Shown here: positions 415 to 29,628 of the stretch, in pieces
Numbering within the stretch: position 1 is the first letter of the stretch
Layout: every line of letters starts with the position of its first letter
DNA from: Liolophura sinensis
Taxonomy: Eukaryota; Mollusca; Polyplacophora; Chitonida; Chitonidae
Direction of reading: 5' to 3'
Length of the DNA: 64,000 nucleotides
NCBI RefSeq assembly: GCF_032854445.1
Contig: NC_088300.1
Coordinates: 36,375,608 to 36,439,607, forward strand
The notes under the pieces: generated by a model
Databases searched by the model: none
Told to the model about the DNA's origin: nothing
Seen by the model: only the letters and a program-made list of their open reading frames with translations
Program-made: the position numbers and the translations under genes

Positions 415-557
415 TGACGTCAGCCAAAGTTCCCGCCTACCGTCTGGATTCTGACCACTCAGGTCGCTTCATCGCTCGCCATGGTTTCCTATAAAGCTTG
501 AGAGAGATGAAACTTTAATCCATATAGCGATATCAGAGGAAATACCATCGCATAAAG
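415..557 (+). promoter_or_regulatory. Putative promoter and noncoding first exon of secreted CBM14 gene 1
   Basis: A TATA box (TATAAAG, 490-496) lies about 60 bases before a splice donor (AAAG|GTAAGC, donor GT at 558). This would make a short untranslated first exon of roughly 520-557. A perfect CRE-like palindrome TGACGTCA sits at 415-422, about 70 bases upstream of the TATA box. The first coding exon begins with a good acceptor at 2711, so an upstream 5' UTR exon is required. The same layout (TATA, short exon, 1.5-2.5 kb intron, signal-peptide exon) is seen at the two paralogues. The assignment is inference; no transcript is available, and another donor-like GTAAGT at 680 is possible. Confidence 0.5.
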
Positions 558-2730
558 GTAAGCATTTATACGCTTTCTAATATAGTCAACTTTCTCTGCT
601 GATGTATATACGTTCAGGTAATGCTGAGTATACTTCTAAGGACATTTCGAGATGTTTTTTTCAACGGCATTCTGGCAGGTAAGTGAACCAGCCAAGTGTT
701 TCTTCATACAGAGAAGTCAGTGGTTTTATGCCAAATTTTTTATGCTAAATGGGAATAATTTTACTTCTATCATGTAAGATGTCATTATGCCTAATTCAGG
801 CAGTCCGATAAGCTGGAAGATTGTAGCCACCCAGCTTCTCTAGCATTTGTTTAAATACATTTCACAGATATATATCTCATCAGAAGGCCCCTCTCTCTGA
901 CAGACAGATAGAGCTACCTCCGACGTCTTCACGTTAAAGTGAACGAGGTTTTTTTTTTTTAAGATAATCTAGGCCTAGAGAACTACACGCTTGGGCGGGA
1001 TCCGTCATGCGACTATGTAACACGGATGCTGGGTGGAGTGTGTGTATATTTAGATATAGACCTATATACAACGCCTGCAGGCATCGGCTTTATCAGCCTC
1101 AGATGACGCATGTATGGACAGATCCATGACAAGGATTTCAAATGTATATTTAACAAACATACGGCCCTATAATCTGAGACACACAACGCTGGGATGAATG
1201 TGGATTCAAAGTGATTTGTCCAAGTATCGACGTAATACTAATTAGTCGTAATTTGTATAGCTTAACAGATTGAACTTTGATCAAGCCTAAAACTCCAGGC
1301 TAAATATGGTTATAGGCCTAATATAATCATTCAGATGGTAAATAAAATTGATCGCTGGTCAAAGGAGTCTTTGTCAATTTACCGAGCGATTGTAGGAATC
1401 ACTGGACTTATTTTACCAATTTTAAATCTGCAAAAATTGAATTACACTATATACAAGGGTATATAGACAACGTTTTAATTTGAAAGATCGTTTAATGAGC
1501 ACAGTGACCTTACATGCTAATTGCGACATTAATTACATTTCTTTACCCACGACGTTCAAATACAGTTTTGTAGTTAGATTCAGGTTCTTGGTTCTAGGCC
1601 TTACGCCGTTCATATGTAGGTAAATTCAACTGTGTAAGGTGGATTTGATGTTCACGCGCAGTCCATGTGCACACATCAAGGGCGATTTTATTTCTAGCCG
1701 CGGGACGTGTTCTTTTTTTAAGTCGCTAAAAATATGCTACACGATTTTCTTTTTTTTTCTTTTTTGTTTTTCTTTTCTTTTTTTTTCTTTTTTGCCATTT
1801 ATCACCTCTGCGTCATGTTTTTTTTACCACAAAAGGAAAAATAAAACAGGATGTTTTATTATTCTGTTACTAGATCTAGATTTAAACTCACGCTTAATAA
1901 GAATATTATTGAATTTATCAGAATCGATACATGATCAAACTTTGCCCCGAAAACATAAATGTAAATATTTGTGTGGTGCGCTTAAAATGATATCCCTCAG
2001 GGAACATGAATCTGCAACGTCGGCTAAATATATATCTGATTTTTGGATAAGGAAAGAAACAAGGATAACACGTGACCGATAAATATCGTCTGCAGTCATA
2101 CTCTTAAAACACCGAAGTTTAATTCATGCTTGAGGAACCGCCCAGTGTATTTAAGGAAACTTTCTTCCTTCTTATATTACCTTTTTTGTTTGGCAGCGTC
2201 CTCTGTCCTGTATACAACGCTAATGTTTTTTTTTATCCTATCGCAACATTTTATGATTTTTTAAAATAAGTTCATTGTTTTACTTCACAGGGTTCACGAA
2301 GTATTCGATCATTCTAACAGACAAAATTAATGTTCAAGTCTTTAACTAGAGGCGTGAAAATGTCAGTCTATATTTAGATATACACAGCAACAAAGCCTCA
2401 TATTATAAACAGAAATAAAACATTATGTAGTGAACTAAAATGTTTGTAAACAGAGATGTCATTGATTCTCATCAGATATACGTTTACAGTGATAAACATT
2501 GCTTTTCCAAATTATGACCACAAATCGTACTCTCGGCTGATTTACTTCAGTTAAACAAGCAGTTTTGACCTTCCATTGGACATGAGTTATGATACCCGAG
2601 GTATTCACCGTATACTGGCAATTGCCCAATAAGTACTTGGTGATGTCGGTATGGAAATTAATGTATCTTATGTGTTTTTCCTAATATTTTTTCTGCTTTT
2701 CCTTTTCACAGGTTATATTTACTGATAACA

Positions 2731-4720
2731 ATGGGTGCTTCTCAGCTTTGCAAATGTATCTGTTTGACTGTTCTCATTGCGGCCGTGTCCGCTCAGAATG
2801 AGATTCGCAGACCGTTGGTTCAAGCCCCACCGGCGTCCGACAGCGACATGAACGCCATGATTGGTAAGTTGTCTTCCGTGTGTCGAATAAATGTAGGATG
2901 ACATTCACACATGCCTTCTGGTGGTAAATGTCTATCAGCTCCATGTCATTTTACATGTGCCCAGATACCAAAGTTTCTTGCTTGTGCATGTGAGCCTAAT
3001 AAACTGTCGAGAAGTAAAGGGCTGTTTCCCATCGAGCGACTATGTGGACACGTGTTCGAATCCACTGGGCGGGAGTTTTTCTCACGTACCAGTTGTATTT
3101 TTGTCAATTAGGGTGATCTTATCCCCTCTGTAAAAATTGTTGGCACCTTTGCCAAGAATACATTATGTAAAACTGGTGTAGGTTCAACTCGCTCTGTTCA
3201 CCTAGTCAACATCACATGAACATTCATCTCTTGTATTTTCAGCTGAGTGTAACAGGCGTATTAGCATCAACGATACCATTAGCCACTATGTACGATCACC
3301 ATCCTTCTGTGGCGCGTACGCTATCTGTGAGCACCCAGAGACAGGTGTAACGCCATCAATGATGTTGTGTCCCGCTGGTTTGTTCTTCAACGACGACATG
3401 GATATACTGACATGTGTGAACCCGACAATGGCAAACTGTCCAGCTGATGCTGGTAAGTTATTCAACATGCACAGAACGATTGTGATGTAAAAGATTAATA
3501 AAATTAAATTAAAATTATTTTAATACCTTGGCCACATGTTGGATATAATTGACATATGAACGTGTGTAAAGTAACCTAATGTTGAAGTTCATTTTTTCAC
3601 TCGTCACATTTTCACTTGTGTCTACGACTGGATAGCACTCGTCGATCCAGCTCTAGCAAAGAGTGCTGTCTTGCTCAAGGCGTCTTAGCGAGTTCTTGAA
3701 AATGGTTATTATTGGTTTGGTAGGTTTTTATCATGCCAAAATCTCTATCAATTTATTATCCCCTTCGTCATTTAGTGTTGGATCCAATTGCCCTCTTCAA
3801 AGAGGTTTTAGAATCTTCGTCAAACCAGCACCCTCTTCTTTCCCTAGATCCTTGCTCTGGCCGGCCTGATGGATTTAACCAGGACGTCATCCGCACACAG
3901 ACGATTCAGGGAGCATACTACGTGTGCAGTGGTGGACGGGCCATTGGTGGAGGATGGTGTGAACTTGGGCAACAATACCTGAAGTTTGACCAGGCTTGTT
4001 TTAATATCCCTGATCTGCCCCCCCAGACTCCCGCCCCTCGGGACCCTGTGCGTAAGTAGACTTTGCTCAAGACAAACTTCTTATATCTGTGCCATAATCG
4101 TCTTCAAACTTCATACACTTCTTTTTATTGTATTCTATTTATTATAATATTATATATATTATCTATTATTCTATTTATTATACAAACTGTCAACATCTAT
4201 CACATTGTATAGAAATAAAAATAAAAGCAAATGCATTTTTAGAAGAAAAACTTATAAAGATAGATAATGCAAGAAAGCCTATTGCTCACTAAACTCTATT
4301 TGAGAAAATGCCAGATAGAGCACGCATATTAGAGTATAATAAAGTGCAAACAGTACACTGACCAACCTTATCCCACAATGCACCTGTTGTCAGCATTATT
4401 GCAACAGTCCAAACTTACTTATCAAACATCTTCAAACGTTTGTAAGAAATATAGCTTGGCAAATTGTTTTCAAACTCATTAAAGAATCCAAATTGTTTGA
4501 TTCCTGTCTTTGGTAATTTTGCGATTGTAAAATCTACAACGGACTAAATGTCACTAGATATAAGTATGCAGATCTTCCTTTGAGGTGTGCTTGTTTTTTA
4601 TTTCCAGCTTGCCATTTACAAGCTGTAGAAGATCGGGTTTCTTCTTTTATTCTTGGTGGAATGGAGATGGATTGCGCTGCTGGAACGGAGTTCAACCAAG
4701 CCACATGCGGTTGTTTATAG
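2731..4720 (+). CDS. Secreted cysteine-rich chitin-binding-type protein, paralogue 1 (four coding exons, 219 aa)
   Basis: Coding exons are 2731-2863, 3243-3452, 3848-4051 and 4608-4720, all with GT-AG introns in phase 1. Residues 1-21 are a signal peptide, with cleavage likely before Gln22 (VSA|QNEIRRP). Exon 2 encodes a peritrophin-A/CBM14 pattern, C-19-C-5-C-13-C-14-C-7-C, with the typical CPAGLFF segment and an N-D-T glycosylation sequon at Asn54. Exon 3 carries PCSG, AYYVC, GGGWC and DQAC, a divergent second chitin-binding-like module. The last exon ends in MDCAAGTEFNQATCGCL. The mature protein has 14 cysteines, so it is probably disulphide-stabilised and extracellular. Acceptor AG at 2710-2711 implies a 5' UTR exon, probably near 520-557. 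After the stop a donor-like AAA|GTAAGT at 4726 suggests a spliced 3' UTR; a possible acceptor is at 5341-5342. Family knowledge supports chitin or other glycan binding. The tissue role is unknown. Confidence 0.85.
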
Positions 4721-5889
4721 TTAAAGTAAGTGTATCCTTTCAATGTGATGTTTCAGAGTGTACCATTTATATAGAAAAACTTTACACGGTTTCACTGCGA
4801 TCACTACCACACCTTTTCGTCGAAACATTCGTATACTAGGCGCCAACCGATGAAAGCGCATTGTTTTTAAGTGATGTTCTTTCTGCTGGTTAGAAAGCGA
4901 TGTACCCTGGATGAATGGACTAATATCAGCGGAAAGTGTTAATTATAGAATAGCGTTTTAATTGTGTTAGTATGATACAATATTTTTAAATGATTTCAAG
5001 TGACTAAACACGATCAGTGTGTATTTTGAAAGATATTTTTCGTTTATTGCTTTCCAGTAAACTGTGAACAAATTATGGGACAATTTGTTAGAAACTGTTT
5101 TCCAAACAAGGCACTTAAATGTGGATGAGATGTCCTTTATTGAACAATGTGCATTCGCTATAACCATGCTTATTAGAACCTACAATCCAGCTCTCAGTGG
5201 GTTGCTTTGGCTTTTCTCCAAAAGATTTGTCGAGAATGAACATAGCAAGTTTGGAAATTTCATCAGATGTGACATAATTATGATTACGTCGTAACAGACA
5301 GTCGAATAAATAAATTAAATATGTTTTTCCTCCTCGTTTCAGAAATAGACGTTTCACCACGATCGTCTGCAAATCAGTGTTTCTGCAGAGTAATGGATGA
5401 AGATGCGAGGTTAAAAGTGACTGCTTTGAATTTTGGATGAGATAAAAATTTCGCGTAAATGTTATATTTGTACAGAATTTTATAGAAAAAAAATATCTAT
5501 ATGTTTTCAAATCTTAGTTTTCATCTATGGATTTATTTCTGGTAATTTCGTTATTGCCCTACCCTGCATGACCTTCAAAGGACCTGAAAAGACAATAATT
5601 TGAGAATAGAATCTCACCGGCCAAACCTTCGAAAAACGACATTTGGTAATATTGGTGTCGCTGTTCATGCAGTATCAACATTTGACTTACTGGTATTCCT
5701 CCAGTTTCGAGAGTCGTGATAGTGGATCTGTTACGGAAGACAACAGATTCTGCTGCCTTGTCAGCTCATGATAAGCTATAGATAATTTATATAGTAGTCG
5801 TTTATCAGTCTTTCCCGTAAACAGCCTCTAATAGATATAATTCACATACATGTTTTCCATTTATTTATATATTAGATTTGTTTTTTTCA

Positions 5890-6430
5890 TTTGTGTTTTA
5901 TACCGTATTCGAGAATATGTCACTTATACGACGGCGACCAGCATTATAAGAGGAAACCATGTATCAACAGTGCATGCTGTAACACCTATACTTGTACAGG
6001 TATTCTGATGGGTACAAATTGTGCCCTCCTTTTGGCTGAACTATACCTGTTCTCGAATGAATGTGCAGAAACTATTAAGGAGTCACCCTCTCCAGGTCGG
6101 ATCTCACTCACTAAACAGTATATTGATGATCTGCTACCTTAAACAATCCATATATAGCAAAGGCTGTGAAAGATTTTTACCCACCTTCGCTGGAGTTAAA
6201 GGAAACCACAGAATCTACAGATGGTACATCTGATCTGGACCTGTATTTGTTAAAGGTCAAAACGGTTTCCTCTCTCAGACGCTACAAGAGGGATGACTTC
6301 CAAAAAAAAAAAACTGCTGTGCAACTTTTTGTATGAGCCCCTACGTGGATTAAAACAGTTTGCAAGGTTTTTTGCGTTTTAACCCAAATAAACTCAAAAA
6401 TATTACAGTCAATCTTTAAATAAACAAGTA
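5890..6430 (+). mobile_element. Penelope-like retroelement remnant (reverse transcriptase fragment)
   Basis: The reading frame at 5891-6142 contains GILMGTNCALLLAEL and, about 35 residues on, the reverse-transcriptase catalytic motif YIDDLL. After a frameshift near 6140, another frame continues with KETTES and DLDLYL and then RRYKRDDF. This order (GIxMGTNCAPLLA, YIDD, KETTES, YLDL, YDKRDDF) is what I recall for Penelope-like reverse transcriptases of marine invertebrates. Frameshifts, stops and a poly-A run at 6301-6312 make it non-functional. The 5' and 3' ends are not clear. A SINE fragment follows at 6557. Confidence 0.65.
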
Positions 6431-6556
6431 CATAAACTTGTCCAGAGACCATATAGCCTTAAATGAATGCTTGGTTAAGATCGGTGAGGTATTATACAAA
6501 GTAAAGTCTCGAAAACAGGCTGGGAACACCGAGTGCTGTAGGCTGTTGTCAGAGCT

Positions 6557-6719
6557 GGCCGTAAGTGGGAAGCTCTTCCAGCAACCTGCGGATGGTCGTG
6601 GGTTACCTCCGGGCTATGTCCAGTTTCTTCCCACTATAATGCTGGCCGGCGTCGTATAAGTGAAATATTCTTGAGCACTGCGTAAAACACCAATCAAAGA
6701 AATAAACCAAAGCAAATAA
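6557..6719 (+). repeat. tRNA-derived SINE (AAAT-tail family), 3' part
   Basis: The segment carries the conserved body CAACCTGCGGATGGTCGTGG, then CATAATGCTGG-like text, GTCGTATAAGTGAAATATTC and GCGTAAAACACCAATCAAAG, ending in AAATAAA. Similar copies lie elsewhere in the window; the one at 23981-24226 keeps the tRNA-like head. The head is missing here. Confidence 0.85.
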
Positions 6720-7290
6720 ATAGTCGAAAAAATGTTTACACCATGCATTGTAGATTCAGTAACTTTGTTTGAGAACACGTTTGTGAACACGTTACAGCTG
6801 GAAAGTGGATATAGGTCAGACAGTCTAGATTAACTGTAAGAAGGAGGTGTAATCCCAAACCCAGCCCTGGGCATAATTGAATTTGTTGATCCCTCCTATC
6901 TCTCTTGATGAAAATATGAAGCGGTTTGTACAGCATCATTTCCATTGAGACCACTTGTCCACCAGTATGCATGGTGTGAATATCTGTACGTCAGGCGATA
7001 AAAAGCTCATCTGTAGCTTGCCAATAGTCAGTGGTTTACCACATGTATTCCAACTCCATCCACAAAACGTCTTGAGTATGGCATTGAATAGTGATCAAGC
7101 GAATGTATACGTTATTTTCAGTTTTAGCCGCATTATACATGAACGAATCTTCCAGAAATATTTGCATGTCACGCGTGGAAAACGTCGCCAGTAACTTTAG
7201 ACAGGTCTGCTGCTTTACTTGTTTTGATTGGGATGCACTTCCTTCTCTACACACCGGTGACACACTGGTTTTGTAACCAACTATAACCTT

Positions 7291-9290
7291 TTGTCCGATA
7301 ATCAGTTGAATTTGTATACAGATGCAGCTCACAGAAAACTTTCGGAAATATCTCCAGCTATCGACCCGATTTTATGTAATGATCGTGTCTGTGGTTGTAA
7401 ACATAATTATATTATATCTGACTTTTACTGTGAAATTGTTCAGGCGATTAATAAGGCGGTAATAGAAACTGTGGCTAAAACGTGTAGGTAAGAGTACATT
7501 TTACTTGGGTGGTCAGACTATGTTGAAGATCTATATTCCCTTCCTAGAACAACATTTCTAAATTGGAAGGAATAAGGCAGCCCGAGGAGTGAAGTTATTG
7601 CTGATAATATGTGGAAAATAAAACGACAATTTAAATATGCCTAAGGGGTCTGTCGTGTAGAAGAAAAATGCACCAAAGCACATAAAATGGCAGAAGCATT
7701 GACACAAAACTCAGCTGATGATTTGTGGAAAGAAGATAAAATATCCAACAATAAGTGTACAGCTCACCCTAGTAGAATAGATAACGAGGAGGGTGAATTA
7801 GAAATTGTTAACTTGTGGCGTGGTCAGTTTAAAGGCATCTTAAATTGTATCAGAGGTGATATTCATGAAAAGAGTGTACCAGACAAATTGGTCTTTTCAT
7901 TCGCCTAGTCAAATATGTGAAGTAGTTTCTAATACGAAAAGAAATAAGTCACCTGGTTATGACGACTTAGCTGCTGAACACAATTGCAAAATGCACCTCA
8001 CATATTATTTGTTCACTTATGTGTTCTCTACAAATTCCAAAGTTGTAATAACTCCTATTAACTAGAACAAAATGGGTAATACTAATGAATCTGATAACTA
8101 TATGCCAATTGCTTTAGCAAACGTAGCTTCAAAGACTATTGAACATGTCATTCTATATCAATGGGAATTAAATTGCTATAGTGCCGACCTACAGTCTGAT
8201 TTCAAACGTGATCACTCCACTGACCACTGTATTTATCTTCTTAAAGAGGTAGTTAACTTTGACAGAAATAACGGTAGTCCTCAACTGGTATGTTTTATGG
8301 GCGCCAATAAAGCGTTTGACTAGGTAAATTTAGGACGTTTTTGCAAAAACTCATCAACAGTAATGCACCGTTATATATTATATATCTGCTGAATATTTGG
8401 TTCAATGCCCAATTGTGTGCCGTTAAACGGGATTCAGCCATTTCACAGTTCTTTACTCCATCAAATGGGGTAAGTCAAGGTGGGGGTTTTGTCACCTGCT
8501 CTTTATTCTGTATATTTATATGATATGGATGGATGTTTAAGTAACGCTGGTGTCAGGTGTAATATTGCTGGACGTTTCATAAACCATTTGTTTGTTATGC
8601 CCATCGGCAAAGTCTTTCCAGCGTTTGCTAGACATCTGCTCTGACTTTTCAATCTCACGTGATATTCTTTATAATTGTAAGATAATTGCTTATGAATAAC
8701 GCCCAAAATCTATAATAGCTTCTTATCCCCGGCTGTAAGGTTCGTGGAGCCATCAAACTGTATGTGCGTAAGTACACACGATTTTAGTGATAGCGATGAC
8801 ATTGACGGACAAGGCAGAAAACTTTGTATTACAGTGAACATCATACTTTGTAAGTGCAGGGAGTGTTCTCTTATTGTGAAGAAAGCGCTGTTTAAGTCGC
8901 ATTGTTGACATATTTATTGTTGTTCACTGCGGTCATTATATTCCCAGAAAAGATTAACAAAATGAAAGTAATGCGTAAAAATGCATTCAGGTGGATGATG
9001 AACTCAAAAAGCTGCTGTAGAGCTTGAGAAATGTTTGTCATGCACACGATGATGTGATTTGGAGATACTCCTTGTTAACGAGACTCGAATCCAGTAACAG
9101 TCAAACGATAGCTACTGTAAGGACCTTAGATGTCCGTGTTCATTCCGTAATATGTGCTAAGTGGAGTCATACTCTGTATTAATACACTATCTGGTTATAA
9201 GCTGTCATCATATGTAATCTCAGTATTTATTATCACATATGTTTGTATTTTATGGACTGGAGCTGCAATAAAACCTAATAATAATAATAA
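7291..9290 (+). mobile_element. Degenerate non-LTR (LINE) retrotransposon, reverse-transcriptase part and 3' end
   Basis: Broken frames in LINE order run through this stretch. They include SISPAIDPILC-like text, a connector with WKE*GSPRSEV, RNKSPGYDDLAAE, DNYMPIALANVASKTIEHVI, LQSDFKRDHSTDHCIYLLKE, CFMGANKAFD, NGVSQGGG and GRFINHLF. These match the RT blocks of a non-LTR element (NYRPI, FGFKxGHST, DxSKAFD, NGVRQGG, NHLxYADD) with substitutions and many stops. The YADD catalytic block is not intact. The 3' end has a CTGCAATAAAACC segment followed by an (AAT)n run at 9280-9300, a usual LINE tail. It is an inactive fossil; the clade is not resolved by eye. Confidence 0.7.
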
Positions 9291-15200: not shown

Positions 15201-15339
15201 AGGTACGTGGGAAGGTTTTCCAGCAACCTGCGGATGGTCGTGGGTTTTCTACGGGCTCTGCCGGTTTCCTTTCACCATAATGCTGGACGCCGTCGTATCA
15301 GTGAAATATTCTTGAGTACGGCGTAAAACACCAATCAAA

Positions 15340-15402
<63 letters not shown>
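15201..15402 (+). repeat. SINE 3' half with long (AAAT)n microsatellite
   Basis: The body CAACCTGCGGATGGTCGTGG, the CGCCGTCGTATCAGTGAAAT segment and the GTACGGCGTAAAACACCAAT tail are followed by about 16 AAAT units (about 15337-15402). It lies inside the first intron of secreted gene 2. The tRNA-like head is missing. Confidence 0.88.
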
Positions 15403-16103
15403 AATTCATCAGTTTCAAACATTGATTACATCTGTGCAATCACTGACGTCTCTATTAACCTTAACAGCAAGATTATTTATAGTTCACGCCCTCCTTACCT
15501 GTAACACTACGTCTCCAATGCAACAGGTGCTTTGATAAACAAAAAACTTAAAATGATCACAAAATTCGATGTGGGTAACAACATTAGTTAATCAGTAAAA
15601 ATTAGTGAGATTATTAAGGATTGCTTGATGAAGAGAAAGCACATAACTAACCAGCTGCTTAAAACTGACTCTCTCCCTCAGGCGTTATAAAAAGCCTCAC
15701 GTGATTTAACACTGATAACGAGAAAAGGTGCATATATGTGTAAGTTATTATAGTCAGCATTTGTAACCTTCGCCACAATTCCTTAGAGCTGCAGCCTTTG
15801 AAAGCCCATTATACCAAACCTGCCTGTGCAAAATTTCCTCTGTTTTTTCTTTCTTTACTGATTAAAAAGTTTGACACATACATGTATACATACTGATATG
15901 TTCTGCAGTTTTCACGTGTGTTTTTATTAAGGTTCTAGTTTAAGCTCTAGCGAGTTTACTTATCTTAATTTATGCTCTTATCTTAAAAGAACCCCACAAA
16001 ACCTATCTGTATCCTCTTAACTTTATTAGCTGTCAGTTTTATAATTAGCTTGTTATTTCAAGCGTTTTTGTTCTCTGATTGCAGCAAGCATAGACCGGGA
16101 AGA

Positions 16104-19100
16104 ATGACTCTATTACCATTATGTACGTTTGTTTGTCTGTCCGTCCTGGTGGTGAACGCTCAAAATGAGATCTTCAGACCCATGGTTGAAGCCAGACCTG
16201 TCAGCGATAATGAAATGGATGCAATTGTTGGTATGTAAAATAGAACTGAGGCATGTCTGCCCTTTGGCAGGCTACTGAAGAACGTTCCCACTCACGACGT
16301 AGAGATACCCACACGACAAGACAGGTGGTCTTCCACAGATATTAGAGTTAGCGAAAGGCAACATAAACTTCGCCGACGCTTAATGCTACCAAATATTGGC
16401 CCCACAAGAAGTGAAACTTTTGACCTCACGTGTTGCTTTAGTTTGTAACGTTTTAGACGCTTGAATCCAACGAGTTGTTTTCCTCGTTTTCCTGACGTCC
16501 TCATTATTGACCAGATTAACTCTCTCATCGTTATATATTTGCTATATGTTTGCCATCATTGTACATCAAACAGGTCAAAAGGTGAAAACAGTTACAGTTT
16601 TGACAATCTTAAATCTTGGTAAGGCCGTGGACCAGTATAGTTAATTCTGTCGATGCAAACCGTACTGCGAAGATCATTGCGAAACGACGCCATTCACACC
16701 AAAAACAAGAACCCCGTTATGCCGGTTAATGTGAGAAATCGCATCTAAGTACTTCTAGACCCGTCACGTCTAAAGAATTACAATGAATTACATGAATAGC
16801 TAGGATAATACCCTAATTTAGGTAAATTGACAAAACGCTGTATTTCACCGGTTACATGAGACAATGGTGTGACCATTTGCGATCTATCACACTTCCTTTC
16901 CTGCTCTCGTTCTACTTTCGGTGCTGTAGTCTAAAACCACCCAACTACAATACGTCACATTGTTCCTAGATATGTTTTTTCAGTTTGCTTTGGTATATCT
17001 TTTAAATTTCAGCCGAATGCATTCGCCGTATAAACATCAACAACACGATCGCTCATAGCACTCGTGTTCCCTCGGACTGCAGTGCGTTCGCCTTTTGTGA
17101 GCATCCGGACACGGGTGTTGAACCCACGCTGATGTTGTGCCCTGCCGGTCTGTTCTTCAACGATGACATGGATGTACTGACATGTGTGAGACCCGCTCAG
17201 GCGAATTGCCCTGCCGCGGAAGGTAAGTATATATAGGTGTTTGGCAGTTTATTTGTGCGATCGGTGACTTCGGATAATCCAACATTAGTGATTTTTGTAA
17301 ACCCCTCCATTTTGTACTGGACGATTTTGTTTATCGGGTCAATCTTTAAAAGACACTTCGTTGATGAATGTTATAAATAACAGATAAAACAGGTGTGACC
17401 AGACTGCAACGAAGAATTATGTAGATTTTTACATTTCGAATAAACAAAAATCCAGCAGTCTATGTGATGAGTACAAATCGAGCACTGATCTGCAGTTGGG
17501 TGTAAAGATTATGAGATTAAAGTCCTTATCTAATTTAAAACAATTCCGAAGTCAAGCCAAAATTGACTTTCCGTGTTAAGTCCGAACAAATGCGTAAGTT
17601 TTCATTCTCCTTTTATGGTAATTGATACTGACCATCAGGTGTTTTTGTACTTGCGCGTGATGAATGTGCAATATCTCTTATTGTGTCGTAATTTATGCTC
17701 AAGCGGAAGTAGAGCTCTTCAAGAAGCGAGTGATTTCAAATTTCAATGGCACGTCATCGTGTTGTTGTTTCATAAGCGGTATATTCTAAAAAGGTTTGAG
17801 AAAAAATAAACGTCTATAGCGTTATTTACAGCATTTTCTTTAGGTCATAGCCATGACCCCCCAACTCCCCACGCCCCCATCCCCGAGAAAAATATTTTAC
17901 AATTAGCTTCCCGAGTGTTATTAATCATGTCGACGTTAGATACGTTAGATTACCTTGAAAACACGCTTTTTATCTAACAACTCTTTATTTAAATAAGAGA
18001 TGATAACATTTTATCTTTTCATTTTTTAAAAATATATCATTACTTAGAATTAACAACAGAAGAAATTGTTTCTTGCTGATATATTTATTTATTGATATAT
18101 GACTTCTTTTTGTGCAGTTTTTACTATCACAAACCACTAAAGGTGTATTAAGTAGAGAAATGTAGATTGCATTGTCAGCTGAAGGCTGTCGATTGCATCA
18201 TCACAGATTGTGTATCGACGATGGCAACTATAGGGTAATAATGCGGATAAGATTGGAAAGTGATTGCAAGCTACGTGCTCAGCATCACCGCTTGTATTGC
18301 TCCTGTATCAATGAAAATTAAGCTTAAAGGTTTGTGCATTGTTTATTTTCAAAGTTCTTTTGGGATTAATGTTCAACGTCCATTATTGCAATAAATGACA
18401 TTGCGCGTTCAATTCGCCAGTGGGTCTTTGCCACACCTGGGGTCTGTTATACAAAGTGCGTCGAAAAACTATACGACGAGCGCATTTACAATGATAAAAT
18501 AATCGATTATATGCCTGTTATGGGGCCTAGGTATCTATACGTCTAAATTCAGCCATAACCATTTGCTATAGGTATCCCTATACCATTCTACGGGGGAGTA
18601 ACACTTTTCTTTCACAGATCCCTGCTCAGGACGTCAAAACGGGTTCATCCAGGACGAGGTGCGCAGTCAGGCGTTTCAGGGAGCTTTTTATCAGTGCCAG
18701 GGAGGAAGGGCAGTTGGTGGAGGATGGTGTGACTACGGTGAACAGTTTGGAGGAGGCAACCAAGCATGTTCAGCCATACAGGACAGACCCGTTCCGACTC
18801 TCGCACCCAGAGATCCATCCGTTAAGTCTATGGTCAGAACGTTCGATTCTCTATAGGTTACATTTGATGGTTTGGGAATCTGAATGATATTTCGATCAAT
18901 ATTTCACTAATACAACCGTGTTCAAAACTGTCCCGAGGTTAGACACCGTATCAAACCAAGATCCAAGGTTATTCTAAACTTTCCAGAATACTGTTCTTTG
19001 CTCAAATGCACAATCGGTCGTTTTGTATTCTGACGTGAAATCTGACCTATTATTCAAGAATTTTCAACTAAGCTGCAATTTGCCCTAAACTTTCGTGATG

Positions 19101-19771
19101 AAACAAACTAAGCCCCTCTTTAGAGTTTGTATTCAAAAATTCAGTGCCAAAGTCAAGGCTGGGAACACGAAGGCAAAGATAAACTTGATTGGAGTTTCAG
19201 TTCGTTTTTGTTTTCAGTTTAGGCACACAATCCGGGTGAAACCCATAACTTCCACAGATTTAGCGTTTTTGGCATCTAAAAATCTCTATTTTATTGTCCT
19301 GGGTGCAATAGAGGCAATTTTTGAAATTGTTATATATCTGCTTTTAAATTATAAATGTGGTCCCATTGGTGTATACGATATGCTACCTTAGCGCTGTTTC
19401 AAATAAATTTTAACTCTTGCCTTTGCACACATTGCAATATAATGGTCCTTCCCTATAATTATTTGTTCGATTCCTGTTTAACTTCATACTCACCAATGAT
19501 CTGTGAGGGTGAATCTACAAATTCCTTGTCCTAAGGCCAGGTTTGAACTCACAACTCTTTGGTTCTATCGACTGAAAGATATGCAAGCAGCTAAATAATT
19601 CGGCTTCTTCTCAATATTGTCACATATAGTAAGTAACAGGTGTGCTCTTCTCTCACAGCTTGTCACTTGAGGCCTGTTGATGGGGCACCCTCCTCGTTCC
19701 TCCTTGGGGCAGAGGTCATGCAGTGTGCTGGCGGTACCACGTTTGACGCTGTCAGTTGTGGATGCTCGTAA
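16104..19771 (+). CDS. Secreted cysteine-rich chitin-binding-type protein, paralogue 2 (donor defect before last exon)
   Basis: Coding exons by homology are 16104-16230, 17013-17222, 18618-18821 and 19659-19771; the product would be 217 aa. A signal peptide (residues 1-19) is cut before Gln (VNA|QNEIFRP). Exon 2 has the CBM14 spacing C-19-C-5-C-13-C-14-C-7-C with an N-N-T sequon at the position of the sequon in the paralogues. Exon 3 has PCSG, FYQC, GGGWC and QAC. The last exon has CHL, MQCAGGTTF and SCGCS before TAA. Exon lengths 210, 204 and 113 equal those of gene 1. Oddity: the donor expected at 18822 reads TTAAGT instead of GTAAGT. The only adjacent GT (18821) shifts the frame and would end translation three codons into the last exon; without splicing the frame stops at 18854. 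This is either a single-base assembly error, a non-canonical splice, or a truncated allele lacking four cysteines. Confidence 0.8.
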
Positions 19772-20830: not shown

Positions 20831-21159
20831 AGGTAATAATGAACAGAAAGTGATATTACAGTATAACATTTGTTTTAGTTTGCGAAAGCGACAGAGGAAT
20901 ATCCAGGAAGGCTATAGATATCAGTCCAACCGAGCACTTTAATCAATTTTTGGAGCTACTTTTTCCCTTTTAGTGGGAAATGGTAACATGAATACTATGT
21001 ATAAGACACAAGATCCGGCAGTGGATAAGAAATCAGTAAATTGCTCGTCTCACTGGTTGTGGGGCGTTAATGACAGTAAGCCGTCGACAATGCTCGTATG
21101 GCCGTTTGCAAAGCCTCATGTTCCTCCAAAAACACTGGCTTCCCATCAGTCTATGTGTG

Positions 21160-21400: not shown

Positions 21401-23122
21401 TAATTCTTCTCAGTAACTATAAATCATTCAATCATTTAATCAGTCTTGCTAAGAAAGACCAATTTTTGTTTGTAGTTTGTAGATTATTACCAGACCATGC
21501 CGATACGGGGGCATCTGATACGGGGGTACTGCATGTTTGTATCATGAGAAGGCCTCTTTCAGTGATTCTACAAACAAACGAAAGTTGGAATAATGTTTCC
21601 ATATTAGAAATTTATATTTTATATTTATTCATGGAAGATTGCATATACAACCTGTACAAGATCGAAGAGTTATTTTTTGTAATGTATGACATACCCAACA
21701 TAAATTAGCTGGAATTATTGCTTAAATATATCTCTGTTATTTACTGAGTGACCGAGTACTGTCAAAAAACAGCTATAATAAGCGTAGACATGTTAATGGA
21801 TAAAGAGTAATTCAGTAAAGGTGTCTGTCTCACATATACAATTAGCCCCGCTAAATCTCGTATTTTCCCGTGTTGTTCAGATTAATGCCACACATGAGAG
21901 TTTGTACACGAGACTATTAAACAGAGAGCATTTCTGGATAACTGAGATCTTAGACTGACTATAAATACACCTATATAGATACACGAAAATTGAGGATTTA
22001 CTATCTCCTTGGCAACTTAACCTTATATCTAAATCCGTACAAAGGAGTCCTGACGAAATCTCGCTCTCGCGCGTCTTCAAGTGTTGACGCAAGATTCGGG
22101 ACATTGGATATCCCCTTGATGTTCGGATAAATAAGACATTTCAACATTATTAAAAGTAAAACATTTATAAATTTCCCGTAATGGTTGTATCCCTGAACGA
22201 TAAAGAGAATGGAAGCCCTCCTTTTCGGCCTGATAAATGACGTTCATTGTGCACCTCTACCGTTGATCGCCTGCATCCTGAAAATAGAAACAGACATACG
22301 TGTAAGTTTTTTTTATTTTATGCTCTGTTGCTGAAAACACGGGCTTTTATCTTTTCAAGTATCACCTATTTTGCTTTAAAATAACACCGAAAGTATAAAA
22401 CTCCAACCAAATTCATCAGTTGATGCAGGCAAGGTTTTACCGTTAATGACGTCCTCCGCGCTTATCACGAAATCCTTGACACATTTCAAGGTTAGTTAGT
22501 TCCTTGTAGATCTGTTATTTGACCTTCGCACACAAAATTGCATTTGCATATTTTAAGATCAAGTTTCAGTGATTAACAATTAGTTTGACCTAATTAAAGT
22601 TTACTCAACTAACACAACAGAAAAACAGTCCTCAGACTGAGAATTCCTCAGACTCTAGAATTATTGGATTTGGAGCCATATAAAGTTAATCATTTGAACC
22701 AATACAGCGCTGGATTTCGTGTTGTTGTGAGCTAAGCTATACCAAGATGATGATAACTTCCTTGCCTTAATAAATACTAGGAACTAATACCTTAATAAAT
22801 AGTCATGAAAAACATATCACGTACCTACGTATATTTAAAATGCATGAATAATGATGGTAACTTAGTACAACGTATTTAACACTGGGTGAATAATGTATAA
22901 TATTCAAATTACGTTGCTGATATATTCAAGCAAATTTTCAACAGAAGGCTTTGGTTATTCCTCTCAGCGACGGCATTCAATATGCAGTACTACATTCTTG
23001 GGTAAAGAACAAAAGACAATCACAAGAAACGCCTTTGTATAGATACTTTCAAGCTAGACAACTTAAGAAAGGTCCTTCCACATTTCACCGGGTACATGAT
23101 GATGTATATCAAGGTGAATGAT

Positions 23123-23214
23123 TTGTGCTGCTGTGTGCAACTGTATAAGTTATCTCATGTATGCTCATGGGCAAGCTTATTGTGCTGCTGTGTGCAACTG
23201 TATAAGTTATCTCA
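23123..23214. repeat. Two 35-bp direct repeats
   Basis: The segment beginning TTGTGCTGCTGTGTGCAACT and ending TTATCTCA occurs at 23123-23157 and again at 23180-23214, identical by eye, with a 57-bp period. It is a local duplication with no coding link seen. Confidence 0.85.
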
Positions 23215-23557
23215 AGCCACAGATACACCAAGAAAGAAAATAGCGAGTATTCCCCGCCCAAAACAATTACGTCCGCACAAGTCGTGTAATATGTCACTGT
23301 TTCTGTATAGTTGTGTTCCTTAGGCAAAGATTTAGCGCACACGCTTTTTGGAACCAGGCATCATGTAATAATGTTTAGTAGTCAATTTCAAAAAGTTGGG
23401 AGGACCAAGACTGGTCAGTCGACAGTGAACGAGTCTCCTGTGATTTGGTAGCGGTTTAGTATTGTCGGTGTGCGACAAAGTGCGATGGTTTCCTCTCGGC
23501 ACTTGGAAGCCGTGGTTTCAGACATGACGTTACTAAATCGTGCGCACTGCATCTGCT

Positions 23558-23712
23558 TTTTATTTATTTATTTATTTATTTATATGATTGGAGTTTTACG
23601 CCGTACTCAGGAACATTTCACTTCTACGACGGCAGCCAGCATCATGGTGGTAAGAAACAGGGCAGAGCCCGAGGGAAAACCACAACCAACCGCAGGTTGC
23701 TGCCAGGCCATC
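23558..23712 (-). repeat. SINE (AAAT-tail family), partial, reverse orientation
   Basis: A (TTTA)n tract at 23558-23582 is followed by TTGGAGTTTTACGCCGTACT, CACTTCTACGACGGCAGCCA and ACCGCAGGTTGCTGCCAG. These are the reverse complement of the SINE 3' half. The tRNA-like head is absent. The intact + copy at 23981 lies 270 bp away in opposite orientation. Confidence 0.88.
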
Positions 23713-23980
23713 TGCTTTTCACAATGGACATCTGAGACGGGAGTCAGGTGCTAGGCACAGGCCCAAGCCCGGTTGATCAAAACTGTTTGAAGACTTAACA
23801 CCAGATTTAACTTTAAACCAAGTCTTTTGTACTTAGCCCAATTTTGTACCTAGCCCAAAAATAATTGCATAACAGTATATTAAATATGCGCTAATCCTGC
23901 TACAGTTTATATCCCAATACTTTAGAATTTGGTCAGCTGTATTGGCTGCTGAATTTGTCTAAAATCTTAATTATAAAACT

Positions 23981-24226
23981 GGGGGCCTCCGTGGCTCAGT
24001 CGGTTAAAGTGCTAGCGCAGCGTAATGACCCAGCAGTCTCTCATCAATGCGGTCGCTGTGAGTTCAAGTCCAGCTCATGCTGGTTTTGCGATAAGCAACC
24101 TTCGGAAGGTCGTGGGTTTCCCCAGGGCTCTGCCCGGTTTCCACCCACCATAATGCTGGCCGCCGTCGTATAAGTGAAATATTCTTGAGTACGGCGTAAA
24201 ACACCAATCAAATAAATAAATAAATA
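23981..24226 (+). repeat. Full-length tRNA-derived SINE (AAAT-tail family)
   Basis: The copy starts GGGGCCTCCGTGGCTCAGTC, giving an A-box-like TGGCTCAGTCGG. A B-box-like GTTCAAGTCC follows about 50 bases further on, typical of a pol III tRNA-derived promoter. The body contains CCTTCGGAAGGTCGTGGGTT and CCACCATAATGCTGGCCGCC. The 3' end is GTACGGCGTAAAACACCAAT plus (AAAT)n. This is the best reference copy in + orientation. Confidence 0.92.
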
Positions 24227-24750
24227 ATTATAGAATTGACTTAATGCCACTTTTAGATAACACACTTTCGAACAATTGAGTCCAATTACTGAGCACACGT
24301 CATGCCTGAACGCAGAAGCAAAAAAAAAACGGTTTCCCTGGGTTCACCCACAACTTTACATGCAAGTGAAATGAAAAGGTAACTAAATCTAGCCAGAACA
24401 CCACTCTGAACAGTTTAGTATTGTAATATGTTACTTTTCTCTCCTTGGGTAATTTATGTCCAAACCAGTTAAACTTTGTCCGTTCTTGTAAAATAGAGTT
24501 GATTTTTAATTTGGCGAGGTTGATTAGGAAATGAGGTAGAAAGTTTTTGTAATATATTAGAGACTTTTAGTTAGATGTTACAAGTTCAACAACTTCTAAT
24601 TTGTACTTACAAGTTACAAGCTAAATGTCTCTTGACAAGACTAACATCACTTTCCCATTTGAACACAACTAAAAATGATGAGCCCCGCCCCCACTCTACA
24701 TGACCATAATATTTACCGTTGTGGATCCAGCTAGGCTGTGTCTCTAGTAA

Positions 24751-27700
24751 TTATAAGTTTGAAAACACACAGGTACATTGCGCTTGATCAAACACCGTTC
24801 CTGGAGAGCAGCTCATTTCTATTCCACCGTTTACAAATTTAAACGGATCCTCAGCCACAGCAAACAAGGTACACTCTGAAATCAGTAATAAAAGGATTGT
24901 GATATAAAATGATGCTTATCAAAAAATTTATCAACAGTTTTAAATCTAGTATTTTAACGTATTGGTGTTTCAAAATATCCTTATGAAATGTACAAGTTGT
25001 TACTTTGCTTGTTACCTAATAGCGTATTATAGCTAGTATATATGATCTTGTATACCATACGGGGATATTTTTTATCCGTGGGTATGGATATAAACGTAAT
25101 TAATATAAATCTAGAAGCTGTATGTCTGATATGCATTTTGTATGTTTTACTACTACACAGCCTAGTTCGACAGGTTTTTCGCCATTAAAAATATCACATC
25201 TACCCTTCAATGTTTCATTGTAAAACCTGATAGTTTCAGAGAGGCTCGCCTATAATCGAGATCTGAAGTTCAAGATGTTAACAACGCTAAAGCATCCTCA
25301 TAATTCGCAGGCTATACTTGCCTTATTCGGCCACTCAATTTTGCTACACCTGTTTTATGTATCCCTATTATTAGGCCTTATTAGGCCTATTACAAGGATT
25401 GTGTAAGACATCCCTTTATTACATAAACCTTATGAGGCCTATTATAAGGATTGTGTAAGACATTCTTTTATTACATAAACCTTATGAGGCCCATTATAAG
25501 GATTGTGTAAGACATCCCTTTATTACATAAACCTTATGAGGCCTATTACAAGAATTGTGTAAGACATCCCTTTATTACATAAACCTTATGAGGCCTATTA
25601 CAAGGATTGTGTAAGACATCCCTTTATTTCATAAACTACTTAGAATACATGCGACGTAAAACTCATATTTCCTTAGTTGAGAACGACCAGAAAGAAATTA
25701 TTGGATTATTCTCTGAAGTAGTTTTTCCTGACATTCAAGCATAAATCTGAAGCATCGTGTTCTCTTCCTTTAACTGCGGTATCTTGTGTTACTTACCTGG
25801 AAGGGCAGCAGCAGTTGTCTGAGGTGGGACAAAGTTTGGAATGGGAAGGCATGGTTGACCAAAGTTTCCGAACTGTTCGCCCAGCTCACACCAGCCCCCG
25901 TTCACAGTACTGCCTCCTCGACAGAGGTAGTAAGCGGCTTGATTTGGCTGACTGCGGACGAAATCCTCATTGTAACCATCCAACAAACCGGTGCAGGGAT
26001 CTGTTTCAAAACAACAACAACAATTGCGTCCCACACTAGAATACTTTGGTAAAAATTTCCACACATTAGGCCATCGTTGAAATCTATCCACCGGTCATCA
26101 TTGAAAACTGTTTACTACTTTCTTTCTTTTAGACAATAGGCGGTTAACATAACGATTTGTTCTGCAGCAATTAAGAAATCAGGTTCGAATCCAGCTTTTC
26201 GGCTATACCTAACATGAACCCCATTGTATAAGTGAGAGGTGACTACGGCGTTAAAACCCAAGTCAATTTTAAAAGAATCAATCATATAGATATAATATAC
26301 AGATAATGTATATGACTGTTACACCGGTAAAGAATATCGTTTCATATGTACGTCAATAGCCATTTACCCCACTCTTTACTTTACAAATAAGCAGACGATG
26401 GGGAGTGGACAAGGGGAGATAACGTCAATATAGTAGAATAAATGCTGGAGATAAGCGTAATATCGTTGACTATTAACGTTAATTAGTTTACCATCGATAC
26501 ATAGCGAACATTATGTTATAGTGTTTAGGCCTATGAAATCAAACGATGTATGGATGAGGTATAATAACTATATATTTATAGTCTAAATTATTGACAGATA
26601 TGTCTCAAATACTGTCATGTATTTCTGTAAATGAAACAGTTTTTGAAAAACTAAGATAGTATTATGTTTGTATGACATTGTGATATGCGCTCGACCTTCT
26701 AACTGCCCTTGGATATTTCAAATCCAAGGGCATGTCCCGAGAATGAGGAAACGGGTGCATAACTTGGACGTTGGAATAGTTTTGACAGAAAAAGGACATA
26801 ACTAATCCGGAGGTGCGTTCTTACCAACAGAGCTGACACAGGTGACTAGGCCTGGCCTGTTACAGGTGAGAATATTTGGCTCAAGGCTATCGTCAAACAA
26901 GAGACCCGCGGGGCAGTTCATGAGAGCAGGGATGACGCCCAATTCTGGGTGCTCACATACGGCGTACGCGCTACAGTCACTCGGTACGCTGACAAAGTGC
27001 GTCACGGTGTCGTTCTCAGCGATGCGACGCTGGCAGGCATCTGGAAGAAGAAATTGTGTCAAGTGTCAGTGTAATGAGCAAACTATCTGGAAAAAGAACT
27101 GAAAACTTTGATTTATTCTGTATAGTATAACTGTCTAGTTGAGAGTTTTTATTTCTCCCACTCGCTGCTAAGTCGAAAATCCAATCTCAGTGAAGTCAAA
27201 TCTCGATGCCGTGCATGCACTTCCTATATTGACTTGTCGCTACGTTGGTCTACCAAAAAAAAAAAAAACAAAAACACCTTTACGCTATCAGCTAGTGCGC
27301 TATTATAGCCCAACAGAATTCTTGTTTTTGTATTTTGAAAAGGGAAATTCTGAATGGTGTTTGATTGGCCTTTCTAACCGAAGTGGGGTCGTCCCACGGG
27401 ATAGAGGCACGTGTTACGTCAAATCTAGAAAGCAATATGCGTATAAAGTTAGTATCGGAAGCGGCCGCAAAATCTGACTGCATTGAGACTGGTGGCCAAC
27501 TTTTCCATTTTCCATTTTAGGTAATGAAAATGTAAGAACTATTGTTTGGATTTGATATTCTTTCTAACGTATTAATAGGCATCTGATCTAGTTATCTCAG
27601 AATCAATGTACACATGTACATGTACCGCTCTATGGTTTGTGAATGATGGCCATTAAGTCACTTAAATGTAACAGCCTGAACGCTTAATCCAGAGCAGCGG

Positions 27701-27923
27701 TAGTTGGCAAATGGTCACACGTAATAGGTGAAATCTGGTCACCTTGCCACATCTTTAACCACTTATTTTCGATGATGTAATACATGTTTACAAACGTACC
27801 GATAATGACTTGCATTTCACCGTCACTGACGGCTCTAGCTGGTACCTCCGGTCTCTTCACGTTTTGACAGCGCACAACTGTGACGAACAGACAGACGCAC
27901 AGGCTTGTGATTATAGTCCTCAT
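24751..27923 (-). CDS. Secreted cysteine-rich chitin-binding-type protein, paralogue 3 (four coding exons, 222 aa)
   Basis: Coding exons on the minus strand, in order, are 27923-27800, 27040-26825, 26000-25797 and 24875-24751, all with phase 1 GT-AG introns. A signal peptide (about residues 1-19) is cut before Gln20 (VRC|QNVKRP). Exon 2 has the CBM14 spacing C-19-C-5-C-13-C-16-C-7-C, two residues longer than in the paralogues, with an N-D-T sequon at Asn51. Exon 3 has PCTG, AYYLC, NGGWCELGEQF and QPC. The last exon gives ECTL, then MSCSPGTVFDQAQCTC and FSNL before TAA. In all there are 14 cysteines, as in gene 1. The ATG exon begins after an acceptor at 27937-27938, so an upstream 5' UTR exon is needed (candidate 29472-29511). 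It is inverted relative to genes 1 and 2. The last intron carries a five-copy 52-bp tandem repeat. Chitin binding is inferred from the family. Confidence 0.87.
25383..25642. repeat. Tandem repeat, five 52-bp units
   Basis: Units begin with AGGCC at 25383, 25435, 25487, 25539 and 25591, so the period is exactly 52. Each contains AAGGATTGTGTAAGACATCC or a close variant, then TTTATTACATAAACCTTATG. Units differ at a few positions only, which points to recent expansion. The array lies in the last intron of secreted gene 3. Confidence 0.95.
26705..26731. repeat. Short inverted repeat in an intron
   Basis: GCCCTTGGAT and its exact reverse complement ATCCAAGGGC are separated by 7 bases. It could form a hairpin in the intron between exons 2 and 3 of secreted gene 3. 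No function is implied. Confidence 0.6.
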
Positions 27924-28057
27924 TCTGACGGTTTACCTAAACGCACAAAAAAGTGAAAAACATAAAATATTAACAATACAAAGAACACAGAGTTTCCTTG
28001 TTTATTTGTTCTTATTTTTCTATAAAATTGAACGCCGTGACTGACAAATTTTCCCCT

Positions 28058-28420
28058 TGACGGCGGTCAGGTTTTTGGGTGAAGAAACCCACAGAAAATC
28101 GACGTTTTAACATAGCTGACAAACCCATTGGCAGCGCTGTAACCAAAAATGGCAAGAGCTTGATTTGAACACGCGGTGCCATTAGTCAAGTGTTTACATG
28201 ATAATCTGTGCGAGCCAACGCTTTGACCACCCCAAACAACGAGGCCCCTGGCAAATGCTAGGCATAAAGTGTATCTATGGCGGCTAGTCTGTGCGTGCCA
28301 GTTCCTTAGTAACTTGCCCAAGATCTGTGGTTTACTCCGGGATTGTTCAGCCCATAAAACTTACTGCGATTGTATTAATGAAAAATTCTTGATTATTGTG
28401 TTGAACAAAAAAGAAATGAA
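28058..28420. repeat. Degenerate SINE debris in the first intron of secreted gene 3
   Basis: On the minus strand, 28058-28190 shows remnants of a SINE (GGCGGTCAGGTTTTTGGGTG, then a B-box-like GCTTGATTTGAACACG). On the plus strand, 28300-28420 has TAACTTGCCCAAGATCTGTG, GGTTTACTCCGGG and TGAAAAATTCTTGATTATTG. Both are old and diverged. Confidence 0.45.
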
Positions 28421-29471
28421 TTTCATTTCTAACACCTAGTCCGCTAATGCAGCTTAATGGTGGAATTAAAAATGGGTAAACCACCAAAATTATAAGATGC
28501 ATGCAATTTGTATAACATATATAACATTAATGCCAATTCCAAACACTCGGTAATGCATTCATTATATATTCATGCAAACGTAACTATCCGGAAGAACACC
28601 TATCCGCGAGCATGGGCTAATCAGGTAATGCACACTGGACGTATGAAGTTTGTCTAGTCTCATGCTTCGCTTCGCTGAATTTTTTCCACGAGCATTTCAA
28701 TATGTGCAAATTAACGCTAGCCTGATTCACACATGTAGAACAAATGGCATTTTAAAGTGTCGTCTTTTTTCGTAAATGCTTTCTCATGCATATGGAAGAA
28801 GCAGGCTATATACAACAGACCTTAAAGGCACGAGAGTATATACTTTGCATGGGCTAAGTATATATAGATACATAGCTCTGGAACAAGCTGGCTTAACTAT
28901 GAGTAGTCAGGATCAGTATTGTTACACGCATGGGTGAAGGCAGATGCAAAAAAAAAAATCAGGTTTTCAAGACTTCAATAATGACGCCGTTTTTTTTTTT
29001 TTGTTTTTTTTTGTTTTACTTCAAATTTTGCCTTCATGAAGAATACAAAAATGTGTAGAGAGCATACATTTGAATAAGAGCGCCTCATTTATCAAAGGGA
29101 ACGATCATATAACGTTTAAAGCAATTTATAAAATCGTAGAAAAATACATTCCACAGTTGACAGAAATAGATATAGATAAAAGTTCGAACAGACATGTTCG
29201 AATTTTATTTATATTTGCCATAGGACAAAAATGTGAAAAAAAAACACCGAACTGTCAAAACATGAGGATGGTCAACTTTATCTACGATGTATACATCCGT
29301 AATATAGAATTAAGCTGCAAAACTTTCAAGCTGCAGGAGTATAAATCAAACAATATGCAGCAAAGAGACTTACATGTGAGAAGTAAGGTATAGACGTTTT
29401 ATGTGAAAGAGATATAATATCATTCACTTACAAATCGAGTGCATACAATTTAACTATCTACACAGTCTTAC

Positions 29472-29628
29472 CTTGTATCTGGTAAATATTCCGAGCTGAA
29501 AGATGGGATTTACTCGAAATGCGAAAGCACGTGCTTTATATATCGGAAATTTTTCATCCGGGATCGATCGGGACTGGTCGGAAGCGTCAGATGGGCGTGG
29601 TGTCTGATTTAGGGCAGCGCCGACGTCA
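29472..29628 (-). promoter_or_regulatory. Putative promoter and noncoding first exon of secreted CBM14 gene 3
   Basis: On the minus strand a TATA box (ATATATAAAG, 29543-29534) is followed about 60 bases later by a strong donor (GATACAAG|GTAAGA, exon end 29472). The implied first exon is about 29511-29472. A CRE-like TGACGTCG lies about 80 bases upstream of TATA (29628-29621), at a spacing similar to that of the perfect CRE of gene 1. The intron to the signal-peptide exon (acceptor 27937-27938) would be 1.5 kb. This is inference from sequence layout only. Confidence 0.52.

Follow-up and report, generated by a model that had tools for sequence, protein, structure and literature searches.

The 64-kb window (the whole stretch of DNA analysed) carries three adjacent paralogous genes, A (+ strand, 2731-4720), B (+ strand, 16104-19771), and C (- strand, 27923-24751), encoding proteins with one canonical CBM14 domain and two further modules whose descent from CBM14 is probable, not proven. 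With a probability of roughly 0.5, we read the products as acidic, cysteine-rich secreted proteins of three CBM14-superfamily units, which would serve a matrix or lining role, with module 1 as the main anchor on a GlcNAc polymer. Most likely, the trio is a new example of a known protein kind rather than a new kind.

Splicing the exons as read from the sequence gave in-frame products of 219 (A), 217 (B), and 222 (C) amino acids with 14 cysteines in each mature part, which confirmed the three paralogues proposed in a preliminary description of this DNA. The coding exons hold one module each and the introns are in phase 1. In copy A, the coding part of exon 2 (+ strand, 2731..2863, donor GTAAGT) supplies the start codon, a putative signal peptide, and a QNEIRRPLV head; exon 3 (3243..3452) encodes the six-Cys canonical CBM14, or module 1; exon 4 (3848..4051) encodes a four-Cys CBM14-like module 2 and a linker; and the coding part of exon 5 (4608..4720) encodes a four-Cys module 3 and the stop. 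Copy B has the same layout on the + strand, with the start codon, signal peptide, and head at 16104..16230, module 1 at 17013..17222, module 2 at 18618..18821, and an open module 3 with four cysteines at 19659..19771. In copy C, on the - strand, the corresponding coding parts are at 27800..27923 (start codon, signal peptide, and head), 26825..27040 (module 1), 25797..26000 (module 2 and linker), and 24751..24875 (module 3 and stop). Each copy has three introns that separate coding exons; all nine end in AG, and eight begin with GT; the ninth donor, that of B exon 4, shows TT at the homologous place where GT is expected.

Over the alignment, B is 59% and C 50% identical to A. In the three pairwise comparisons of the mature part, pN was 0.25, 0.32, and 0.35 and pS was 0.83, an indication of old, constrained copies despite the saturation of synonymous change. 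No convincing fourth copy was found in the window, either by tblastn with the nine exon peptides or by running profiles of modules 1, 2, and 3 against its 2,963 six-frame open reading frames (ORFs) of at least 15 amino acids.

The mature proteins are 198 to 203 residues long, with a calculated pI of 4.2 to 4.5, and their cysteines are arranged 6+4+4. Spacing is near-identical in A, B, and C, with 19, 5, 13, 14 (16 in C), and 7 residues between the cysteines of module 1, 6 before module 2, 23, 10, and 12 within it, 18 before module 3, and 20, 10, and 1 within the latter. The sole tryptophan of each mature protein sits in a GGWC motif. Signal peptides, judged by eye, suggest that all three proteins are secreted, and together with the score of module 1 they support the earlier view of secreted proteins with one canonical CBM14 each. 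The QNxxxRPxV head ascribed to the whole trio was found in A and B but not in C, where it is one residue shorter (QNVKRPEV).

Module 1 is a CBM14 (peritrophin-A; PF01607) domain. It has six cysteines in every copy, and the exons searched alone scored 26.8 (A), 29.7 (B), and 31.6 (C) bits against Pfam CBM_14, all above the curated cut-off of 22.1 bits. According to work on chitotriosidase (PMC4844120), a Trp two residues past Cys5 is probably involved in chitin binding; at this position, module 1 has N in A and R in both B and C, which speaks against a chitin-binding role. When the module 1 profile was run against the window ORFs, the top non-self match was exon 5 of C, which encodes module 3 (E 0.017).

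Module 2 resembles a CBM14 that has lost two cysteines. It matched CBM_14 in B (18.6 bits, E 0.002, profile positions 1-46 of 53) and in A (13.6 bits, E 0.078, positions 1-44 of 53) but not in C, and in no copy was the cut-off reached. Both matches begin at Cys1 and stop at Cys5 or two residues later, excluding the Cys6 end, and Cys1, 3, 4, and 5 are placed in A and B as in PF01607. In all three copies, module 2 has four cysteines, with x10 and x12 between Cys3, Cys4, and Cys5 compared with about x9 and about x12 in CBM14, and thus lacks the six-Cys arrangement with its 2-6 bridge. Pairing in EHEP and like proteins is given as 1-3, 2-6, and 4-5 (PMC10619976); module 2 would therefore be without both halves of one bridge. 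Shuffle controls with cysteines held fixed were run on B for module 2 and on C for module 3, in each case the copy with the best score. CBM_14 was matched by none of 10 shuffles of B module 2, and one of them matched a different, glycine-rich family at E 0.046, so the E value of 0.078 for A module 2 means little by itself.

Among non-self matches of the module 2 profile to the window ORFs, module 1 of A ranked only third (E 2.4), and the two matches to PDB sequences (E 1.4 and 8.4) were not recognisable as CBM14. AlphaFold modeled the full exon 4 with a pLDDT of 47; for the trimmed module 2 of B, one of five models reached 71, with three strands, and the others remained at 42 to 44. Foldseek gave 120 matches to the predicted fold up to E 10, and the 50 that were listed included no CBM14 protein. 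PglL_A, the sole Pfam family found in the second half besides CBM_14, was rejected as a domain there: it matched 7 residues of module 2 of C only, at E 0.19 to 0.2.

Module 3 looks like a shortened unit. In C, it matched CBM_14 at 19.3 bits (E 0.0012), with 21 residues on the 21 profile positions 27-47, which by coordinates is the Cys4-Cys5 end of the domain. Pfam gave no match to any family for module 3 of A or B, and again no copy reached the cut-off; none of 10 shuffles of C module 3 matched CBM_14. Its profile placed module 1 of C fourth among non-self matches in the window ORFs (E 1.6) and retrieved only two PDB sequences up to E 10, EHEP (E 0.16) and Blo t 12 (E 0.17), both named as CBM14-type in PMC10619976. 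Comparisons between the modules by hhalign gave probabilities of only 0.7, 0.4, and 3.8%.

The preliminary description placed the second half of these proteins outside CBM14 and considered it novel-looking. The former is true with respect to the curated cut-off but not to sub-threshold similarity, and the latter is not well supported, given sub-threshold CBM_14 matches in two of three copies of module 2 and one of three copies of module 3, as well as a cysteine pattern in module 2 reminiscent of Der p 23. This mite peritrophin-like allergen, a CBM14 protein with two bridges, has them at Cys27-46 and Cys56-69 (PMC12609036), that is, C-x18-C-x9-C-x12-C versus C-x23-C-x10-C-x12-C in module 2, a comparison of residue numbers rather than of sequences; Der p 23 was absent from the PDB matches of the module 2 profile. 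A new fold in the second half is improbable. It is rather unlikely that exon shuffling joined two small disulfide modules of other descent to a CBM14 and that their short Cys/Gly/aromatic patterns converged on CBM_14-like scores. Such an origin would fit the restriction of sub-threshold scores to some copies, the weak hhalign results, the lack of a CBM14 structure among the Foldseek matches listed, and the symmetrical phase 1 exons, through which any domain could be shuffled. However, the matches of module 2 span Cys1 to Cys5, that of module 3 falls on the Cys4 and Cys5 positions, and none of the 20 Cys-fixed shuffles matched CBM_14.

A second alternative, unlikely though conceivable, is a soluble binder resembling EHEP, the 25-kDa polyphenol-binding protein of Aplysia kurodai (8in3), present in mucus or digestive fluid, in which three CBM14-type units would form one compact body that has lost chitin binding and whose central cleft would hold a molecule that is small or aromatic, such as a polyphenol from the diet. 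Aplysia EHEP has a cleaved 20-residue leader, is seen over residues 21 to 227 plus two disordered ones, consists of three peritrophin-A domains with linkers, and does not bind chitin (PMC10619976). The trio is comparable in its predicted secretion, in its mature size, and, provided that modules 2 and 3 are counted, in having three CBM14-type units; EHEP was also the top PDB match of the module 3 profile, and the trio lacks the chitotriosidase Trp associated with chitin binding. Yet every unit of EHEP carries the six-Cys motif, versus 6+4+4 here, the match with module 3 covers 16 residues of a generic CBM14 end, module 1 matched EHEP only at E 4, and a whole-protein profile retrieved a single PDB sequence up to E 10, 6bn0, which is not EHEP. 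It appears more improbable still that a tandem CBM14 protein was rebuilt by cysteine loss (six, four, shortened four) into a single body for a ligand other than chitin, in a putatively lophotrochozoan family. The EHEP mode of action would then have arisen a second time, or this family would be an older offshoot of it, maintained in three or more neighbouring copies that diverged long ago.

Whether copy B makes the full protein is a nearly even call, falling slightly in its favour: the loss of the exon 4 donor may have left a pseudogene or a shortened form that stops after module 2. Besides the TT at the donor, read-through of exon 4 would add an 11-residue tail before a stop, and use of a GT one base upstream would cause a frameshift and an early stop. 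On the other hand, exon 5 of B is open and keeps its four cysteines and 12 of the 17 residues common to A and C there, and module 3 shows pN of 0.32 versus pS of 0.91 with A, and 0.46 versus 0.76 with C. Any loss would therefore be recent, allelic, or a sequence error.

In the reading that we favor, each phase 1 exon would encode one CBM14-superfamily unit. Module 1 would retain all six cysteines; module 2 would have lost Cys2 and Cys6, which form one bridge, and kept Cys1, 3, 4, and 5; and module 3 would be a shortened unit with the Cys4-Cys5 end and two further cysteines. The likeliest role would be that of a structural or lining component of an extracellular matrix, whether the shell organic matrix, the periostracum, the cuticle, or a gut or mucus lining, with module 1 providing most of the putative anchoring to chitin or another GlcNAc polymer and modules 2 and 3 acting as stable spacers or partner-binding surfaces. 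If so, cysteine positions would allow seemingly unclassifiable cysteine-rich halves of invertebrate matrix proteins to be recognised as reduced CBM14 units, and the trio would offer three natural variants for asking which bridges and aromatic residues chitin binding requires. The trio does not establish a new class of system.

Parallels with known molluscan proteins are drawn from published descriptions. The Lottia shell proteome lists secreted proteins with two, or two to three, peritrophin-A domains (PMC3374290), and Pif/BMSP proteins have, beside regular domains as in the trio, recognised CBM_14-like ones with weak scores (PMC11291548). Pif/BMSP have a VWA domain, whereas Pfam found none in the whole trio proteins up to E 10. 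NCBIfam returned no family up to E 1 for the three proteins, Rfam no match at gathering score for the window, and our literature searches, among the papers listed, no publication that we recognised as describing this family. Of five trio peptide strings sought in paper texts, one or more occurred in 128 papers; among the 15 of these that were listed, GGGWC alone occurred, in papers unrelated by title. In viral and prokaryotic genome contigs, the whole-protein profile gave 84 and 66 pattern matches, respectively, and the module 2 profile gave 135 in the viral ones, with no confirmed relative; given their viral and prokaryotic content, these collections have no bearing on animal relatives.

Upstream of each gene, we noted a candidate promoter or first exon. 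For A (+ strand), the putative promoter region (415..558) contains TGACGTCA from 415 and TATAAA at 490, and a putative non-coding first exon ends before GTAAGC at 558. For B (+ strand, 15686..15740), a TATA-like box at 15686 and a donor-like GTAAGT at 15740 suggest a putative non-coding first exon. For C (- strand), the presumed promoter region (29471..29628) has TGACGTC from 29628 and a TATA-like box at 29542, followed by donor-like GTAAGA at 29471 and a second donor-like motif, GTATG, at 29446.

The three neighbouring paralogous genes, here called A, B, and C, encode predicted secreted 14-cysteine proteins. Their coding exons, mapped on the genomic sequence and assembled, lie at 2731-2863, 3243-3452, 3848-4051, and 4608-4720 (A, + strand), at 16104-16230, 17013-17222, 18618-18821, and 19659-19771 (B, + strand), and at 27923-27800, 27040-26825, 26000-25797, and 24875-24751 (C, - strand). 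The joins, predicted from genomic sequence, are based on splice signals and on agreement among the three copies. Phase 1 is shared by every intron that separates coding exons, which places each module on an exon of its own: the six-cysteine module 1 on exon 3 and the four-cysteine modules 2 and 3 on exons 4 and 5. Acceptors are AG throughout the nine introns, and eight have GT donors; the exon-4 donor reads TT in B versus GT in A and C. The exons of the preliminary description can be spliced in frame, giving two complete predicted products (A, 219 residues; C, 222 residues) and one of 217 residues with a donor fault (B), none with an internal stop. Judged by sequence, the gene trio is real, with A and C apparently intact and B showing one splice-site departure. 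Intron 4 of C also contains a 52-base unit repeated five times head to tail (25376-25636, 94% matches).

Reading through beyond exon 4 of B would add an 11-residue tail before a stop, and use of the GT one base upstream of the TT as donor would shift the frame. Exon 5 of B is still open, keeps its four cysteines, and retains 12 of the 17 residues common to A and C. The TT could reflect a recent loss, an allelic variant, or an error in the sequence. Copies of a short interspersed repeat (about 24148-24217, 15275-15344, and elsewhere), presumably a SINE, adjoin genes B and C with TTTA or TAAA runs alongside; its core, ACGCCGTA[CT]TC, occurs three times per strand in the window.

Searches of the window by tblastn with nine exon peptides, and by hmmsearch with one profile for each module against a set of 2,963 six-frame open reading frames (ORFs) of at least 15 residues, recovered A, B, and C in order and no further convincing copy. 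Identical residues in the aligned mature proteins number 120/198 (A-B), 100/196 (A-C), and 97/196 (B-C). Over the mature part, pN is 0.25, 0.32, and 0.35 in the three pairs, with pS at 0.83 in each; the values are 0.24 to 0.29 versus 0.73 to 0.92 for module 2 and 0.32 to 0.46 versus 0.76 to 0.91 for module 3. We give no whole-protein pN/pS ratio because synonymous change is saturated. Low pN against high pS points to long purifying selection on the trio.

The mature N terminus was placed by eye before QN, and the signal peptide is thus predicted by inspection. The predicted mature proteins A, B, and C have 198, 198, and 203 residues and calculated pIs of 4.39, 4.45, and 4.23; all three share one N-x-T site. 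CBM_14 (PF01607) is the sole Pfam family found when the full-length products are scanned (32.8, 38.6, and 42.3 bits; cut-off, 22.1 bits), and the module 1 exon scanned alone passes the same cut-off in A (26.8 bits), B (29.7 bits), and C (31.6 bits). The single classic six-cysteine CBM14 that had been proposed for each protein was recovered, and all 14 cysteines were counted in each mature protein.

Modules 2 and 3 are probably reduced CBM14 units, descended from the CBM_14 domain. Scanned alone, module 2 matched CBM_14 in B (E 0.002, profile positions 1 to 46 of 53) and A (E 0.078, positions 1 to 44) and gave no CBM_14 match in C, while module 3 matched in C (E 0.0012, positions 27 to 47) and gave none in A or B. 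By the match coordinates, the last cysteine of module 2 (A and B) and of module 3 (C) falls at profile position 44 and the cysteine 13 residues earlier at position 31, which suggests that these are Cys5 and Cys4. Shuffles with cysteines fixed, made for the best-scoring copy of each module, yielded no CBM_14 match in 10 for module 2 of B or in 10 for module 3 of C. One module 2 shuffle hit a different, glycine-rich family (E 0.046), so E values of such size do not count as evidence on their own. When hhalign was run between modules, the probabilities were 0.7, 0.4, and 3.8%. In ORF scans of the window, the best non-self match of the module 1 profile was the module 3 exon of C (E 0.017); among non-self matches, module 1 of A came only third with the module 2 profile (E 2.4), and module 1 of C fourth with the module 3 profile (E 1.6). 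The two PDB matches of the module 2 profile, at E 1.4 and 8.4, could not be identified as CBM14. The predicted model of A exon 4 was poor (pLDDT 47); a trimmed module 2 of B, which reached pLDDT 71 in one of five models, was predicted to form three strands, and its Foldseek search (top match, E 2.8) had no CBM14 protein among the matches listed, the best 50 of 120 up to E 10. The hhalign, ORF-rank, PDB, and Foldseek tests, with thin alignments of three rows each, do not support descent of modules 2 and 3 from CBM14.

The cysteine pattern bears on the same reading. According to PMC10619976, CBM14 cysteines pair 1-3, 2-6, and 4-5; aligned to CBM14, module 2 is missing Cys2 and Cys6, which together form one of these bridges. 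The mite peritrophin-like allergen Der p 23 has bridges Cys27-46 and Cys56-69, and the third bridge of chitotriosidase is a different, local one, Cys460-Cys462 (both from PMC12609036); the third bridge therefore varies within the family. The second half had been described as off the standard CBM14 spacing: each of its modules does have four cysteines, but Der p 23 provides a precedent for the spacing of module 2. Module 3 is shorter, with 20 residues from its first cysteine to Cys4, versus 31 (15+1+5+1+9) between Cys1 and Cys4 in the motif of EHEP, a polyphenol-binding protein of the sea hare Aplysia kurodai, and has an extra cysteine two before Cys5.

By plan, EHEP is the nearest known protein: PMC10619976 describes a cleaved 20-residue leader, residues 21 to 227 seen plus two disordered, and three units. 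It lay beyond the reach of the whole-protein profile of the trio and gave only short matches, to module 3 (E 0.16) and module 1 (E 4). The same paper states that critical chitin-binding residues are not conserved across CBM14 proteins, and that neither EHEP nor Der p 23 binds chitin; chitin anchoring of A, B, and C would for these reasons be no more than the default guess about a secreted CBM14 protein. Two residues after Cys5, module 1 has N (A), R (B), and R (C) at the place of Trp465, described in PMC4844120 as probably involved in chitin binding. The GGWC tryptophan is the only one in each mature protein. No paper describing the family was recognised among the results listed from searches of largely open-access literature, and other resources may well already carry it as a chitin-binding or peritrophin-like protein.

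Each of the three copies has a candidate TATA-like box and a possible short non-coding first exon, with box and donor at 490 and 558 (A), 15686 and 15740 (B), and 29542 and 29471 (C). TGACGTC lies upstream of the TATA-like box by 75 bases in A, 86 in C, and 242 in B. Window-wide, the motif occurs 14 times on both strands, each full palindrome counted twice, versus 4.4 expected, and 14 was reached in 1 of 100 shuffles. Two open frames, at 5876-6139 (+) and 8066-8320 (+), had no Pfam match up to E 0.01; by their motifs they look like reverse transcriptase fragments. An uninterrupted frame of 786 codons, stop to stop, at 47734-50094 (+) has a Pfam 7tm_1 match (E 4.1e-20), the seven-helix domain of rhodopsin-type receptors.
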